In this document: piece after piece, positions 5,733 to 23,400 of the stretch
Position numbering within the stretch: position 1 is the stretch's first letter
How the letters are laid out: every line of letters begins with the position of its first letter
Assembly: GCA_002179805.1 (NCBI GenBank)
Contig: NAVB01001516.1
Coordinates: forward strand, 1 to 26,360
Length of the DNA stretch: 26,360 bases
Direction of reading: 5' to 3'
From: Acanthamoeba lenticulata
Lineage: Eukaryota > Discosea > Longamoebia > Acanthamoebidae
Position numbers and translations under genes: made by a program
The notes under the pieces: model-generated
What the model was told of the DNA's origin: nothing
The model's database searches: none
Seen by the model: the letters and a program-made list of their open reading frames with translations, nothing else

Positions 5733-6858
5733 ATGAACAGCCAAGAACCGGAAGAAGCCATGGTTGAGTTGCGGAGGCAGTGGGCTCGTGTGGCGGAAGC
5801 CAAGGCCGAAGTTGAGGGAGGGTCAGACTGGAGGAAGAAAGGCGTGCCAGTGAAGTCATGCACGACAAACTCGCGGCCACTTTGCCCGATCTACCCTCAA
5901 GAGTGAAGCTGAATGTCGGTGGCCAAGTGTTCATCACGTCGTTAGAAACCCTTCGAGGTCGTGAGCGGAGCTCTTTTTTTGGATCGCTCTTCTCGGGCAA
6001 GTGGAAGTCCGACGCTGACGCTGATGGCGCCTTCTTCATCGATCGGTAGCTACAACTTGTTCATGCTTTTCTCTCTGGGAACAGTTGTCCTCATATCGTT
6101 ATGGCAGGGATGGCAAACACTTCCGACGCATCCTGAACTACCTTCGCACGGGCGAGCTTGTCCTGCCGATTGACGACGCGGCGAGACGAGAGCTCATGCT
6201 CGAGGTCGACTTTTACCAGCTCCATGACCTGTTGGCTGACATTAACCTCCATTCTGGGTCAAACAACTTGACCCAGGCCAAGGTGTTCAAGGGCTCCATC
6301 TTGCTTGACTCTGCGCACCAACTGCAGCTGGCCGAGTGGTTCCCCCAGCACCTCCACCCCTCGGCCGAGCCAGCCGCTTGTTGGACGCTTCTCTTCCGCG
6401 CCTCACGAGACGGCCACACGGGCGAGCGCTTCCACGAGTTGTGCGACGACAAAGGCCCGACCTACGTCATCGTCCGCTCGGCCGAGGGACACCTCTTTGG
6501 CGGCTTCACCAAAGTCACGTGGGCCGCGCCCACGCGGCTGCGCGGGTCGAGCAGCCTCGGCGGCTACCGGGCCGACACCGACGCCTTCGTCTTCACCTTG
6601 CGCAACCCTCACGGCCTGCCGCCGACGCGCTACGCGGTGGCCCTGGCCTCGCTGGCCATCTACTGCCTGCCCCGGTGCGGCCCGTGCTTTGGGCTCGACC
6701 TGTTCCTCCCATGCGCATGGACGACGCTGGCCAGCAGCAAGTTCCCCAAGTCCTACACCGACACGACGGCCCTGAGAGAGAAGACCTTCACCGGCCAAGC
6801 CGACGGCTGGCGCGTGGACGAAGTCGAGGTCTTTGGCCTGGAGCCTCCTTGTGTTTGA
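5733..6858 (+). CDS. BTB (T1/KCTD-type) plus TLDc domain protein, apparent frameshift near the start
   Basis: Downstream exons are clear: coding to 6045, a 62-nt intron (6046-6107) and 6108-6858. The join restores FFIDRDGKHFRRIL of a T1/KCTD BTB fold (RVKLNVGGQVF to about GELVLPIDD). The second half is a TLDc domain: WTLLFRASRDGHTG, YVIVRSAEGHLFGGF, DAFVFTLRN, CFGLDLFL and a VDEVEVFGL end. BTB domains oligomerise or bind cullin-3; TLDc domains occur in oxidation-resistance (OXR1) proteins, some of which bind the V-ATPase. The first part, MNSQEPEEAMVELRRQWARV onward, is in a different frame from RLEEERRASEVMHDKL; both look coding and meet in the G-rich stretch near 5815-5825. Either one base is missing there, or an unrecognised splice removes the break. 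An in-frame ATG also exists at 5685. Confidence 0.78.
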
Positions 6859-6917: not shown

Positions 6918-9900
6918 CTAGTAGATGTGGACGACGTCGGTGGTGCCGCGGCCAAAGGTCTCGGGCGAGTACATCTCCTCGACCTTGGTGGGCGGCGCGA
7001 TGAAGAGGCCTAGCGTGGTGGCCCGGGCAAGGTAGGTGTACTCGTAGATGCCCGGCGCCAGGTAGGTGGTGAAGGCCTCGCATTGGTCGTTCTTGAGCTG
7101 CTGGTGATCGAACCACCGGCCGTCCCACCCCGTCACCAGCCCTGTTGTTCCCCCCCCTCCGGCCGTCAAAAAACGAAAGCGAAAACAAAGAACGAAAGAC
7201 GGTCAAGAACGAAAAACAAACCGACAGCGAAGCCGCGGCCGAGCGCGAGAAGCTCGAGGAGGAGAGTCTTGCGCGAGTTGTTGAGGGCGCCAAAGTCCTG
7301 TTCCTGCTTGAGCTCCGGGTTGAGCGGCTCCAAGCCGGCCGGGAGCGGGTCCTTGAGCGCCACGTGGTGGCGGGCCAGCTGCGTGGTCACCACAAGGCGC
7401 ACACGGACACGCGCGCCCGCCTTCACCCGCACGCGCCCCTCCGCGCTCACCTCGACACTGTCCCCGTCCACGAAGAGGTCAGCCAAACCACCGAAGCCGC
7501 GCGCGTGTGTGTGTTTTTGTGTGTTGCGTGTGGACACGCACGCGGACGGGTCGTCGACGTCCTCGTAGGTGCGCCGGACCGAGAAGCCGCGGTTGAGCGG
7601 CGGCAGGTCGTGCAGCGGCGGCGCATAGTTCATCGCTGTGTGCATGAAACCAAGCAAGAAATCGTGAGCGTTGAGATGACGATCATGAAGCGTGTCGAGC
7701 ATCGCACGCACTGATGCGATAGTGGAGGGTCCCCTGGCCGCGCTTGCGCAGGATGAGGTCCAGGCCGTCCTTCGGAACAAGGGCGGCCGAGGAGGACGAG
7801 GAGGCGGCCGCGTATTCGCGCTGGTCGAGCTGCTTGGCCAAGAGGGCGGTCATGGGCACCGCCAGCGACCGGGCGTGGGCCGAACGGCCCCGGAAGGCCT
7901 GGCGGCCCAGGTAGCCGTCCTCGTCCTCGAGCCAGAGGCGCAGATCAAAGTCGGGCGGGACGCGCTCGCGCGTCTCAAAGTAGCGCGCAAAGGCCAGGAG
8001 GACCCACACGTTCTCCTGCGTGCTGTCCCACGCGCCGGCCTTGCCCTTGGCCGCCTGCAGGCCGTGCGCCAGCTTGGGCACCAGCGGGTGCGAGGGGTCG
8101 ACCGCGAGCAGGGCCGACATGACCAGCGCGTCGCACTTGCGGGACGAGTGCAGGACGAGGTGGTTGTCCGTCCTCGTCGCGTCGGTGGTCATATGCGCGC
8201 CCGACGACGCGGTCTCCACGGCCCGGTTGTTGATCTCGCGCAGCGCCGCTGCGACGACACCGTCACGTTGCGGCTGCTGCTCGACATTCTGTTGTTGCTG
8301 CTGCTGCTCGGCGTCCGCCCCGCTGACGACCAACTGTTCGAGCCGGCGCTGGAGCCGCACGAGTGAGGCCTGGAGGACGGCCTCGCGCCGGAATCCGAAA
8401 TCGAGGATCGAGGCCAGGTCCCGGGAGGACTCTCCGGTAAAGAGCTGCATCCGATCGCGCTCGATCTCGGCCAGCTCTGCCTCGACCTCGGCCTTGCGCA
8501 GCTGGGCCTGGCGTTGGTCCAAGCGGTCCTCCTCGTCGCCGCTGGCGGCCCGCTCGCGACGGGAGCCGCCCGCGGCCAGCCGGGCCTGCTTGCGCGCCCT
8601 GCTCTCGTCTTCCTCGTGTACGATGGGAAGCAGCATGGCCAGGGCCTCGAGCGGCAGCTGGTCGGGGCCGCGGGCCAGCAGGCGCCGGGCGAGGGGCTGG
8701 TAGGTAGCCTTCTCGGCGCGCCGGTAGAAGCGGTGGAGCAGGAACAGGGCGTAGGCCCGGATGGTCTGCCGCGCACTGCGCGGGTATGACGCCGGGATCG
8801 GGTGGGCCTTGGGCGAGGTCTGGCGGCTGCTCAAGAACACGCCCTGTTGAGGAAACTGCCCGAAGTTCCGCACCTGCTGCTGCTGCTGCTGCGGCTGTTT
8901 CTGCTCGGCGGCCCATGCCTTGCGGCCGACGATGAGGCGCTTGACGTAGGCCAAGACCTTTTCAAGGACGCCGTTTTCAAAGCTGAAGTTGGACTCCTGG
9001 TCGAGCAGGAACAGCGCGTGGGCCACGTGCAGCTGAATGTACACACACAACACCAACCACAAACGTCCAAGGATTTGAATATGACGTCAGCAGTGCCAGG
9101 CGGGGTGACGTGGGCATGACGTGGCGCGTGACGTACGCTCACAAAGGGCCACGAGGGACTGTCGCTGCTCGAGTCGGCGTTGAAGGAGTAAACGTTCTGC
9201 TGGCGGCCTTGGCTAGGCCAGAAGCCGAAGCCGCCATCGGGGTTCTGCATGGCCACGAGCTTGCGGGCGTCCTTGCGCAGGCGCTTGTTGAGCTCGGAGC
9301 TCGGCTCGACGTCGTCGTGGCCCAGGCCGCCGCCAAACCGCCTCAAGAGCGGCGCAAACACGATCGTCGAGATGACGCGCGACGAGATCTGCTCACTACG
9401 ACGTTGACGTCAGCATGACGTGTGAGCGGCTCGAGCCCACGACGGGCGGACCACAGCACGGTTCAGGTACCTGCACTCGTACTCGTAGGTACGGAGATAG
9501 TGGAACGCGTCGGCCAGCGACGTGAGCATGGTGGACGAAGTCGACAGCTCGAGCCCGCCGAAGCGCGGGTTCATGTCGGCCGGCGGCTTGATCCGCAGGC
9601 GCAGGCCACCGGCGCTGGCCTCCAGCTCGCCCGTAGTGGCAAAGGTCTCCACGACGGCGGGCTCCTTGAGCGGCAGCGCCACCCGCACGGCGTCAGTCTC
9701 GGCACCAAACATGAACGCGCGGCCCTCGACGGCTACGGCCTCCACGACGGCCGACTTGGCCGCCACCGAGGCCTCCAGCGCAAACATGACCTCGGCCCTG
9801 CGACAAAAGGCCAGGGTTCAGGCCTCTGCAGCTCGGCGCAGCTGGTTCAATCGAGGGACGAGGGGAGGAAGGGCGTACCGGTCGTTGGCTTCGACCCGGA

Positions 9901-18798: not shown

Positions 18799-20407
18799 AT
18801 CTGTGCCTGCGGTTCGCTTTTTTCTTCTTTTCTTTATCTTTTGCCGGCATCTGTGGAACGTGATCACGGAATGTAAAAATGAAATTACCTATTTAATTTT
18901 TATTTTGTTGGCGATGACCACAAAAGGAAGCCGCGTAACATAAATGGAAAGCTCGCGTGGGCACCAAGGGCGTAGCGCCCCACGTCAGCGCCCATGGCTG
19001 TTTTCGGAAGGGAAAGTTAAACCAGCCCTTCCTCCTATTTGGCTAACCGTTATATTTTATACAAAATTAGCTAACGGCTAGGCGTAGCGAGAGGCCACTT
19101 CCCAAGCTGAGCGCTTCTGACGGCAGTGTAAAGCGCTGAGAAGCAAGAGAGGATGGAACGAGAGGGAGAAAGGACACTGGTTTGGCTCTAGCGAAGCTTT
19201 GAGGTGCCTGGTCGTAGTGTGCGTCAGTGTACGACTCCTCTCTTTGATGTTTGTCAACTCTGCTCCCTCACATCCGTTTCCTGGGCTACAGAGACCGTTT
19301 GTGCATTTGTTGATGGATCTTCAATGGTTGTTGAGTAGAGGTACTGTACTTCCACTCGCTCACAAAGATTCGCCTTTCTTTTTCTGTGCTTTACTCATCA
19401 TTGATACCTACTAGGACAACCGAGGTTGATTTCGAGCACCCACCGGTGTCGCGTGAGCCGCTCTGGTGTGCCTTCCTCTCATTCTTGTCCTCCGAACTTC
19501 CGCTGAGGTCTCGGGTAGTCCTCGTCCCATCGTCAGGACGCGAAACGGTAGTCAACCCAGAGGCTGCCTTACCTTTCTTCCTGAGTGAGGTACCTCGCTT
19601 CCTTTTACAGTGTTGGCACCTACATCCAGTGGATCCCAACAACGTGCTCTGGAAGAAAGGTAACGGCATCACGTGGACTTGACCTCAATCGCGCTTGCCT
19701 TAGGCTCGTGCCGATCATCCTGGTGTCCATAATCGCTCCGCCTGGTCTCCTCTCCGCAAACGTGAACGCCCTCGCGACTTCTCTGGCCCAATAGCTTGAT
19801 TTCCTTAAATCATAGGATTGGGCCGAGCAGTTATGGAAATGGTGTTGGCGCCCTTTGGCGCGGTTGTGGGCTGGGCTGTCTTTTTTCTTTTGTTGTGTGA
19901 CCAAGCGGCTGAGTGGTGAGAGATCGATCTACCTTGACGCGCCCTGTAGCAGCAAGCCTATTGCTGCGGTGAGCGTTTTCTTAGAGGTACTCGAGACCAA
20001 ATCACCAGAACCCATCTCTACTCTTTCGGCACCGCTCCTCCCTCCGACTCAGCATAGTGGGATACGCTCCCCGGCTCAGAGCCAGAGAACTAGCCCTACA
20101 CTCCCGCTTCTGCCCGTGTGGGACCACATCAACCTCCACTTCCACTTCGCCTCTTCAGTTCTTCACCACTTTCCTTTTTCTTCGCTCCAGCTCCTTTCTT
20201 CCCTTCGGCTTCCGCAACTCAGCTCTCTCTCGGCTGTAGCGTTACCAAAACTGAGTGTTGAGAAACGCCCCGCAGTGAAGTGGGCTCCAAGACAACCGAT
20301 CTTGACCAAGGAGGACAACTGAGGAGTCCCTTTCGCGCCCACTGAGTTCTTCACTTCTCTTGGACCATAAGAAAACACAGCCACATACCGAACTGCTCAC
20401 AAAGAAG
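18799..20407. other. 1.6-kb region without a supported gene; hairpins and pyrimidine-rich leader
   Basis: No open frame here resembles a protein, and none shows splice-supported continuity. 18799-18920 is AT-rich and probably holds the 3' end of the dynein light chain transcript. 18956-19140 contains several inverted repeats (listed separately). 19949-19967 is a perfect hairpin, GCAGCAA-GCCTA-TTGCTGC. From about 20020 to 20240 the plus strand is strongly pyrimidine-rich, typical of a promoter or 5' leader for the Myb/zinc-finger gene at 20408. No tRNA or rRNA was recognised. Confidence 0.5.
18956..19137. repeat. Cluster of three inverted repeats with a repeated GGCGTAGCG motif
   Basis: Stem 1 is 18968-18972/18976-18980 (GGGCG-TAG-CGCCC), nested in CGTG/CACG (18956-18959/18981-18984). 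Stem 2 is CCGTTA/TAACGG (19047-19052/19072-19077). Stem 3 is AGCGCTT/AAGCGCT (19110-19116/19131-19137). GGCGTAGCG occurs at 18969-18977 and again at 19081-19089. This could be a structured RNA or a worn mobile element; neither is proven. Confidence 0.45.
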
Positions 20408-23400
20408 ATGAGTATCCTTCCGGAGGACTCAGCCTTCTTCGGGTTCGAAGACCACAACATGGACATAAGCGAGTTCTTTGCCGGCGCGGGAGCTGATCTG
20501 CTCTCGGAAGGATTCGGCTCCATCGACAGCCACCTCCTCAACTCGCCACCAGAACTTCGCCGAAGCCAGCAAGCCACCAGCACTTCCTCCGCCACGAGCG
20601 CCTTCTACGCCACCAGCACGGTTGGCAACGAAGAAGCTGAGGGCGAACACCTCCTTTTGGCCTCACAAGCGTCCCCTTCCCTGGACGCCGCCGCCGGAAC
20701 CACGTCCGAGACAGTCAGCGAAGAAGGCACCTGGACCAAAGAAGACACCCTCCGCCTCACCGACCTGGTCAAGTTCTACGGCCCCAACTGGACCGAAGTT
20801 GCCAAGTCCTTTGAAGGCCACACTCACACGCCCGAGGTAGCCCACCTCTCCACGAACACAGTGCAATCAAATCAAAACAAAACAAATCAAGTTACGAAAT
20901 CTAATCCTTGTCCCAACTTGCAGGATTGCCAGCAGCAGTACCAGATCTTGATTGACTACGTGACCAAGCAGAACCAGCTCCAGTTGCTAGAGACTGCCGA
21001 CGAGTCGGACCTGTCTGGGTCGCCTTCGCCCTCTTGTGAGTTTTTCTTCTCAAGTCCTGGCGATGGGAGCATCGACCCCTTCATTATGCAGACGCTTGAG
21101 GATGGCAGCGAGGTGATGGAAATGGGCAACATGGGCGACTACACGGTCGCCGGCCTCCACCGCCATCACCAGTCGCATCAGCTCGTCGATATGGCGTCGG
21201 TCAACAGCCTGAACGCTGCGAGCCTGCTCGAGATGAACCCGCTCAGCGCGCTGAGCAGCATGGGCATCACGATGGAGTCCTACCATCCCCCATCTGACCA
21301 TCAACAAGGGTATCAACGCTACATGATACCCACCGCCTCGATGAGCGTCATCCGACCGCAGAAGAACATGAAGAACAAGAGCTCGAAGAAAGCCAGCAAG
21401 GAAAAAGACTCGAAGAAGGTAAAGAGCGGCGACAAGGCCAAGAAGAAGGCGCAGCGCCGCGCTGAGAAGGAGAAGCGCAAAGAGGAACGACGACGGAAAC
21501 GCCAGAAGAAGAAGGCCGATAAGGCCAAGAAGAAAGAGAACGAGGAAAAGAACGGCAAGGAGGCCGACAAGGAGAACGAAGCGGAAAAGAAGGAGACTGA
21601 CTCGAAGGAGACCAAGGAATCGTCCTCGAAGAAGCGCGAGCGGGACGATACCAAGGTTACCAAGGAGCCCAAGGTCGCCCGATTAGACGCCAAGACCATG
21701 AAGGAGAGCACCTTCACCTCCAAGCCGAAGGAGGCCAAGAGCTCGAAGAGTGCCAGCACCAAGGCGGTCAAGGTCAAGTTGGAGCCGAGCGCTGAAGACC
21801 CAAGCACGCCCCAGGCCGCCTCGACGTTTGGCACGTCGATGAACACGACCGCGCCGCTCAACAAGACTTTGGCCGGACCTTCTTCGTCATCATCGATACC
21901 TTCATCGTCACCGTCCATGATGGCGCTGGCGAATGTCGTGCAGTTCCAGCATCGCGTCAACTACAGCCAGCAGACGCACACCCCACAGCGCACGCAATAC
22001 CCGGTGCTCATTCCACGCATGCCGCCCGCCAGCCTAATGTCCAGCCTGCTGCCGCTCTCCATGTCCGTCGCGGGCGCCGGCCCGATGTGCGGCGTGATTC
22101 CTGCCGCGGCGCATGGCCAGCAGCAGTTGACGTCGCCCTTCTCGCCTGTTGTTGCCTCTCCCGCCGTTGCGATGCCATCACCCTTACCGTCGCCTTCGCC
22201 CAGCATGGCTTCCACGCCTGGGCCACAGTCCCTGAGCGATCCCGCCCAATCGAACACAGCTGCCGGTACGCCGCAATCGTTCGCACCTGCTTGTGTTTGC
22301 CCCAGAAGTCTGACCATGACGCGTTGCTGGCGACAGATTCGATCTCGGGCAGCAATCCGACCGACCCTGCGCAGCCGCAGGCCGCCACTTCTCAGACACC
22401 CGCACCCGCACTGACCAACGTTGAGGCTCAAGCCGTTGGCGCACAACAGACCACGCCTCCGCTTACCCCGGCCGGAAACAACGCCGACGGCTCTGCTGCC
22501 CCGAGCCCCGCCTTGGGAGTTGCTGGAGCCAAGACCTCCGTCCCCGGGGCTTCGCCCGCCTTTGTGCCCGGGCGCGTACCGCAGATGACCGTACGGCCCC
22601 ACTCTTGAGCCAAAATCAGCTCCCTCGTGGGCTGACGATGACACCTTGATTTCACGCGACAGATTCCGCCGGCCATGTTCAATGCCGCGCTGCAGTACCC
22701 GCTGGGCGTGCTGCACAGGATGCCCATGTGCCCGATCCCGCCCCAGGCCAGCATGAACACTGCTGTTGCAGCCAACAACGCCACAACGACCGCCGCCGCC
22801 GCCGCTGCCGCTGCCGCCAACTCCAACCTTAAGAGGAAGAAGTGCGGAGGCAAGCCCGAAGGCGCTCTGCCCGGCAGCATGGGGGTGAGCACCGAGAGCG
22901 GCAGCCCCGAAAGCGCTGCGGCCAAGAAGCGCAAGCGCAGGACCGCCGCGGAAATCGAGCGCAAGTTTAAGTGCGAGATGTCCAACTGCGCCAAGTCGTA
23001 CGGCAGCGAGGGCGCCCTCAAGATGCACGTCAAGCTCAAGCATCCGGGCGTCAAGCAACCTGCCCTCAAGTCGCCCAACGTCCCGTCGCCCCGCGTCACC
23101 ACGCCTCAGCAAATGCCGCTCTTGCTCCAGTTCCCGCTACCCTTCATGCCGGGCATGATGGGCTCGCAGCAGCCCATCTTCCCCGGCCCGGCCCCGAGTT
23201 CGGCGGCGGCCATGGTCGCTGCAGCTGCGGCAGCGGCCGCGGCGGCCGCCAACAACTCGGCTCTGGTCTCAAGCATGTCGGTCCCCGCCGTACCTGCGCG
23301 ATCGCTGGTGCCCACTGCGACGTCGGCCTCGGCCTCAGCGACGTCCAACAACGCGACATCCTCGGCTACTTCCTCGCGGTCATCGTCGAACACGGTCATT

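Follow-up and report, generated by a model that had tools for sequence, protein, structure and literature searches.

The 26,360-nucleotide stretch of Acanthamoeba lenticulata DNA analysed here (the window: bases 1-26360 of contig C1011, NAVB01001516.1) carries on its minus strand, from 15740 to 6918, a gene for a bacterial-type alpha-2-macroglobulin (A2M) protein with an intact CxEQ thioester motif and two ubiquitin folds. One of these (Ub1) is N-terminal, and the other (Ub2) lies in the position of the bait, the segment whose cleavage springs A2M traps. We tentatively propose, with confidence slightly short of an even chance, that the encoded protein is a cytosolic thioester trap that uses ubiquitin as its bait and is sprung by ubiquitin-cutting proteases.

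A single gene encodes the A2M body and both ubiquitin folds

The genome sequence examined comprises 48.5 Mb in 1,825 contigs. An independent splice model of the gene was built from scratch on the minus strand and then adjusted with the help of relatives. In its final form it comprises 26 exons and 25 introns, every intron being GT-AG, and its coding length of 6,738 nt, divisible by three, gives a product of 2,245 amino acids with a single terminal stop and no internal stop. This agrees with a preliminary description of the window, which had reported one continuous 26-exon gene with a coding length divisible by three. Its statement that every junction keeps phase holds in the final model, but only if intron 5 uses an acceptor at 14204, at the junction of a deletion described below. 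The description had also argued that the ubiquitin parts are not separate genes. This proved correct, as one open reading frame runs through them and a relative's transcript (EukProt entry P0003) holds the whole order. P0003 bears the name of a Trinity transcript with a full open reading frame; in the species it comes from, the ubiquitin exons are therefore part of the A2M message.

Two earlier 25-exon versions of the window protein also served in the analysis: one of 2,284 amino acids for the Pfam and protein searches, and one of 2,273 amino acids for the tree, the hydrophobicity scan, the polarisation of changes and the ratio of nonsynonymous to synonymous substitution rates (dN/dS). Families above the Pfam cut-offs were ubiquitin (E-value 6.6e-37, two stretches), bMG10 (5.3e-29), A2M (9.5e-16), A2M_BRD (6.4e-11) and MG2 (4.3e-10); Big_5 and bMG3 matched below their cut-offs. 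The domain search of the spliced product thus recovers both the A2M and the ubiquitin families, as the preliminary description had read them, and the domains MG2, A2M_BRD, A2M and bMG10 follow each other in the bacterial-type order.

Five amoebal sequences were compared: the window protein, a second copy on contig C410 of the same genome, and proteins from Acanthamoeba castellanii Neff (P0001), Balamuthia mandrillaris (P0002) and the EukProt transcript (P0003). The window and C410 sequences are near-copies, so counts out of five stand for four lineages. The thioester motif is CSEQ in the window and C.EQ in all five. The ExMY motif reads EEMY in all five, and E.MY is found in 145 of the 158 others that carry a thioester motif. 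The predicted structure of P0003 has an A2M fold, and its best structural matches are the bacterial A2Ms E. coli YfhM/ECAM and Salmonella SaA2M. The global Foldseek template modelling scores are low (0.19-0.41 by query length) because domain placement differs. Searches of the PDB by sequence, with P0001 and with the alignment, gave only ubiquitin-type entries among the best 60 of 387 and of 427 matches; the comparison with PDB was therefore made through a bacterial-type relative.

Ub2 takes the place of the A2M bait

Ub2 is located between A2M_BRD and the A2M domain, which is the bait region of A2M proteins. The preliminary description had overlooked this position, as well as the absence of a signal peptide and the deletion that makes the window copy doubtful. 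In the E. coli A2M structure (4rtd), the matching anchors end at chain position 901 and restart at 953; the construct begins at residue 23, so that position 901 is about residue 923. Residues Arg923-Leu942 of E. coli A2M are disordered and form the cleaved bait (PMC4498604). The gap between two anchor patterns measures 96-149 residues in the 51 of 229 other proteins in which both anchors were found, and 137-138 residues, ubiquitin included, in the four amoebal proteins with both. Since the amoebal gap falls within the range of these other proteins, ubiquitin stands in for the bait rather than forming an added arm. The tail of Ub2 is followed by a third glycine and by a chain corresponding to E. 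coli Phe947-Asn963, which binds the C-terminal domain once the protein is cleaved (PMC4498604). Downstream of the predicted cut, the amoebal chain starts GADPSMM.

Ub2, but not Ub1, keeps the cutting site of ubiquitin

Ub2 is identical to human ubiquitin at 53-67 of 76 positions across the five sequences (54 in the window), with 50 positions invariant across all five and human. In every sequence the tail of Ub2, LRLRGG/G, preserves the cutting site. Ub1 retains LVLRL without RGG in all five, and by its Pfam stretches and tails it is a ubiquitin fold lacking a processable GG end. The hydrophobic patch residues 8, 44, 68 and 70 of Ub2 are the same in all five and human. With regard to lysines, Lys63 is lost from all five, Lys29 and Lys33 from four and Lys48 from three, while Lys6, Lys11 and Lys27 are retained. 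The deubiquitinase-facing residues vary at one of 16 positions against 5.5 expected (P 0.006), and are thus more conserved than expected.

In Acanthamoeba and Balamuthia, residues 18-26 of Ub2 (about 10621-10595 in the window) read [AG]SW.T[LV]..LK in place of EPSDTIENVK, so that ASW or GSW at 18-20 and Leu26 are common to both genera; the motif is absent from P0003. The tryptophan at position 20 may dock ubiquitin onto the A2M body. The genome's own ubiquitin was read from six units at three loci, which are mutually identical and differ from human ubiquitin at three positions. Ub2 differs from this ubiquitin and occurs in all five sequences, which rules out a recent chance insertion of a ubiquitin copy.

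The family forms one amoebal group

Protein searches covered 5.8 billion proteins, and in each of them scoring was confined to the roughly 8,000 candidates with the most words in common. Three close full-length relatives were found, in A. castellanii Neff (57% identity), B. mandrillaris (39%) and the EukProt entry (39%), all aligning with the window protein through both ubiquitins and the thioester. The same order in other amoebae, which the preliminary description had proposed to look for, is therefore present. All three relatives show the Pfam order Big_5, MG2, A2M_BRD, ubiquitin, A2M, bMG10, with Big_5 below the cut-off in Neff, and each has two ubiquitin stretches, the first at the N-terminus. 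By eye, some short stretches of the others seem to be missing from the Neff model. On sequence grounds, the domain combination is far beyond chance.

Among the matches listed (the best 120 of 707, all 116 of 116, and the best 120 of 3,017), only P0001-P0003 hold both Pfam families; long ubiquitin-repeat proteins fill nearly all of the best 120 of 3,017, where rarer members may be hidden. Ub2 as a general feature of A2M proteins is ruled out by these same lists. Another protein, P0279, passed a loose motif filter and was rejected, its listed Pfam families holding no A2M domain. Nine loci in viral contigs were likewise set aside as carriers: the patterns (one for A2M, one for ubiquitin) and the query ranges point to plain ubiquitin coding.

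The preliminary description knew of no protein that combines the two families. The combination is on record, however, as the Neff and Balamuthia proteins are public under the uninformative names 'Alpha2-macroglobulin domain containing protein' and, for Balamuthia, 'Polyubiquitin'. The suggestion of an undescribed system stands in part: the proteins were already public, and searches of an open-access library for this combination found no report of A2M with ubiquitin.

In a quick tree of 70 A2M proteins (five amoebal, 65 other), the amoebal sequences form one group with a support of 98 in the SH-like approximate likelihood ratio test (SH-aLRT). The tree flags long end branches, those of P0003 and Balamuthia among them, and thus possible long-branch joins; only the amoebal grouping is used here. 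Among the matches listed, most are unnamed and the named A2M proteins outside amoebae are bacterial. A bacterial source for the A2M body is likely from these sequences. The Pfam A2M profile alone gave no match against the genome, probably because introns split the domain. A third locus of the genome, on contig C587 (54000-69000), encodes a distinct A2M whose bait is long, acidic and rich in E; the 15 kb scanned there contain no ubiquitin motif. Overlapping matches at 66.4-68.3 kb on the same contig point to another A2M gene, or a fragment of one, in tandem.

The protein is probably cytosolic

None of the five amoebal proteins has a signal-like hydrophobic N-terminus, whereas 192 of the 229 other proteins do and 37 do not. 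The scan used a crude home-made cut-off and is not a signal-peptide predictor, and the 229 include a few polyubiquitins and partial proteins. The first 30 residues of the amoebal proteins contain 8-14 charged or histidine residues. An export signal is usual for bacterial-type A2M proteins and does not define them; its absence marks a variant. Because a signal-like N-terminus is lacking and ubiquitin folds stand at the N-terminus and in the bait, the protein is predicted to reside in the cytosol (or nucleus).

A second, intact copy of the gene

The copy on contig C410 is 95-97% identical to the window gene in blastn pieces, and 97.6% identical over 8,830 aligned gapless bases. It is intact in its model, with 2,426 amino acids and 27 exons as modelled; the model keeps one likely intron, and the exons probably number 28. 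Compared with this copy, the window lacks about 604 bp at 14201/14202 (C410 15622-16225). Counted in C410 exons, exon 7 is gone entirely, as are the larger part of exon 6 and more than half of exon 8, which removes about 150 amino acids of the N-terminal MG domains. As a result, intron 5 of the window stays in frame only through the acceptor GCCGAG/TC ending at 14204, which is the deletion junction itself. This acceptor is doubtful; one lying 11 bases upstream would fit the C410 model and would shift the frame in the window.

It is an even bet whether the window gene, as a duplicate of the intact C410 copy, is decaying and no longer makes the full protein. Besides the deletion and the frameshift expected from a C410-type acceptor, the window has accumulated more changes. 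Of 67 amino-acid differences between the copies, with Neff as outgroup, 22 are derived in the window, eight in C410 and 37 unresolved, and at transition sites the window has A/T against G/C in C410 at 110 positions and the opposite at 50. On the other hand, dN/dS between the copies is 0.29 overall, the remaining frame of the window is open, and a one-base change beside the junction (GCCGAG against GCCGAA in C410) creates the AG that restores the frame. An assembly error could also have caused the apparent deletion. The dN/dS of the linker (residues 104-238) is 0.50; that of Ub2, 0.21, rests on five changes and says little. Decay of the window copy does not compete with the other readings considered here, as the family is real and independent of it.

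Table 1 Features of the window and the evidence for each.
Feature	Position	Strand	Evidence
Whole gene, bacterial-type A2M with two ubiquitin folds, 26 exons	6918..15740	-	Splice model, Pfam, homologues
Ub1, N-terminal ubiquitin-like domain (residues 33-103), exons 1-3, tail LRLVGRPAG without RGG	15290..15644	-	
Acidic linker from Ub1 to the A2M body (residues 104-238), evolving faster	14885..15289	-	dN/dS
Junction of the ~604-bp deletion relative to the C410 copy	14201..14202	none	blastn, junction inspection, C410 model
MG2 (residues 645-727)	12866..13200	-	Pfam PF01835, 40.3 bits, cut-off 32.8
A2M_BRD (residues 1039-1184), ending in AVLFL ahead of the FY anchor	10969..11486	-	Pfam PF07703
Ub2, ubiquitin in the bait position (residues 1220-1295), one intron inside, tail LRLRGG	10445..10774	-	Pfam 1233-1304 (earlier numbering), alignment
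Predicted scissile bond G76/G (codons of residues 1295 and 1296)	10442..10447	-	LRLRGG/G in 5/5 sequences
A2M domain, after the bait (residues 1317-1404)	9944..10381	-	Pfam PF00207
Thioester motif C-S-E-Q (residues 1534-1537); an intron splits the Ser codon	9389..9475	-	Splice model; C.EQ in 5/5
bMG10/CTMG (residues 2098-2232) with EEMY (ExMY) motif	6960..7444	-	Pfam PF17973
Degenerate upstream repeat resembling exons 1-2 (QTLTGKVVEVTIPV*)	15746..15960	-	Read from sequence

The upstream repeat is apparently a relic; it falls inside the stretch that aligns to C410. On the plus strand, an open frame at 6025-6858 with BTB/POZ and TLDc domains stands tail to tail with the A2M gene, and a 702-residue open frame at 20306-22414 contains a Myb-like DNA-binding domain.

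Discussion

In the mechanism that we propose, Ub2 would be recognised by a ubiquitin-cutting protease, for instance a deubiquitinase that an intracellular bacterium makes or a host one that is out of place, and cut behind Gly76. Release of the chain that begins GADPSMM would allow the A2M body to change shape in the way known from bacterial A2Ms with a cleaved bait; the CSEQ thioester would be exposed, and the protein would bond covalently to the enzyme or to a neighbour. Through the tail-less Ub1 at its N-terminus, the product could then be connected to ubiquitin receptors or the proteasome. The sequences and models show the domain order, the bait position, the selective retention of RGG, the lack of a signal-like N-terminus, the intact CxEQ and ExMY motifs, the A2M fold of a relative's model and the single amoebal group in the tree; from there we infer the cytosolic place, the cleavage, the triggering, the capture and the role of Ub1. 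We favour ubiquitin-cutting proteases as the trigger because bait cleavage triggers A2Ms, exchange of part of the bait of E. coli A2M for another protease site redirects capture (PMC9918453) and C3 offers a precedent for a folded domain at this place. In A2Ms, cleavage of the bait triggers a conformational change that exposes the thioester (PMC4498604, PMC9918453), and a symbiont of amoebae is described as expressing predicted ubiquitin-specific proteases in Acanthamoeba (PMC8831229).

Several observations weigh against such a trap. Host deubiquitinases normally cut ubiquitin inside linear fusions cotranslationally (PMC3692480), and the residues that deubiquitinases read are conserved in Ub2, so the survival of an uncut trap is unaccounted for; that the shared changes of Ub2 reduce cutting by the host would be a guess. 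RDDR, the partner motif of ExMY, is found only in Balamuthia; it is KDDR in Neff and degenerate in the window and C410 (KNDQ) and in P0003 (KETG). Taken together, the lost lysines do not reach significance (P 0.18). The structural model has low confidence over the ubiquitin region and its tail (predicted local distance difference test, pLDDT, 32-68 by block), and it leaves the exposure of the RGG tail undecided. Finally, the window's own copy may be broken.

The strongest rival, unlikely in our estimate, is a two-chain mature form. Host deubiquitinases would routinely cut the nascent protein after Ub2 and the halves would assemble, Ub2 being a maturation signal and not a sensor. The N-terminal chain would end in a free ubiquitin tail, whose RGG might be activated by the ubiquitin-activating enzyme E1, and the C-terminal chain would start GADPSMM. 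C3 works as assembled halves after processing. Both the RGG/G in all five sequences and the cotranslational cutting of internal ubiquitin, which is described for any junction but proline (PMC3692480), suit this explanation. It accounts less well for the thioester: cleavage of the bait activates bacterial A2Ms (PMC4498604), and constitutive cutting would therefore use up the thioester, but CxEQ and ExMY persist in all five. The changes shared by Ub2 (ASW/GSW at 18-20, Leu26, and the loss of Lys63 in all five) would also be needless in a mere processing tag.

Alternatively, Ub2 might never be cut and might serve as a docking module, bringing ubiquitin-binding proteins or enzymes that depend on ubiquitin to an A2M scaffold, which would act on them by another route, RGG being kept by folding or chance. 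The invariance of patch residues 8, 44, 68 and 70 agrees with docking, and Ub1, which keeps part of that face without RGG, makes such a use plausible at least for itself. We nevertheless hold it very unlikely for Ub2, where RGG is needed neither for the fold nor for the patch and is found in 5/5 sequences against 0/5 for Ub1, and where the insertion lies exactly at the bait.

A bolder extension of the ubiquitin-baited trap, which we regard as quite unlikely, is an intracellular complement-like system. Ubiquitin would replace the anaphylatoxin and the deubiquitinase would act as the convertase; the cut at Gly76 would bond the thioester protein covalently to the enzyme nearby, or to the bacterium or vacuole from which that enzyme came, and the target would be marked for the ubiquitin-reading machinery of the amoeba. 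A domain swap would have turned a bacterial-type periplasmic protease trap into a cytosolic guard of the ubiquitin system.

Amoebae host many intracellular bacteria, some of which make predicted ubiquitin-specific proteases. A trap baited with ubiquitin would, if true, give a direct answer to how a cell notices an enzyme that strips ubiquitin. It would also place an A2M-type protein at work within a eukaryotic cell, and it would suggest a simple design for the covalent capture of deubiquitinases. The bait slot can evidently be filled by a whole signalling protein. We know of no thioester protein that is processed by deubiquitinases, even as maturation only.

The amoebal protein belongs to the A2M/thioester family as a variant and is not a separate kind. 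Nearest to it are the Neff and Balamuthia proteins, which share its domain families and its two ubiquitin folds under names silent on the bait position. With the bacterial A2Ms (E. coli YfhM/ECAM, Salmonella SaA2M) it shares the MG domains, the bait region domain, CxEQ and a C-terminal bMG10 with ExMY. It differs from them in that its bait is a folded ubiquitin with RGG/G instead of a disordered loop, in the lack of a signal-like N-terminus and in the extra N-terminal ubiquitin-like domain.

Complement C3 carries a folded anaphylatoxin domain of about 77 residues at the bait position, and a cut at the C-terminal end of this domain activates the thioester. Residue 273 of the structural model is the first aligned to C3, at C3 residue 742 (2a73_B), and by an ungapped count Gly76 (model residue 258) and the C3a cleavage site, at C3 residue 726, lie about one residue apart. 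Unlike C3, C4, C5 and the thioester-containing proteins (TEPs), the amoebal protein has ubiquitin and not an anaphylatoxin at the bait, a predicted cytosolic location and bacterial-type domains; a netrin-like C-terminal domain is not among the Pfam matches of the window protein. With no anaphylatoxin at the bait, the likeness to C3, C4 and C5 would be functional only. In fly TEPs, the hypervariable region has been compared in a review with both the bait region and the anaphylatoxin domain (PMC5489563).

A2Mcap, an engineered E. coli A2M with an exchanged bait, resembles the proposed trap in that a chosen protease site directs covalent capture of that protease (PMC9918453). It is a laboratory construct with a short peptide site, whereas the amoebae carry a natural whole domain. 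Ubiquitin fusions, as in the ubiquitin reference technique, likewise contain an internal ubiquitin with RGG followed by another polypeptide. These are cut at once and release their parts, whereas the amoebal Ub2 sits in the loop of a conformational trap and has shared changes of its own (PMC3692480 for the fusions).
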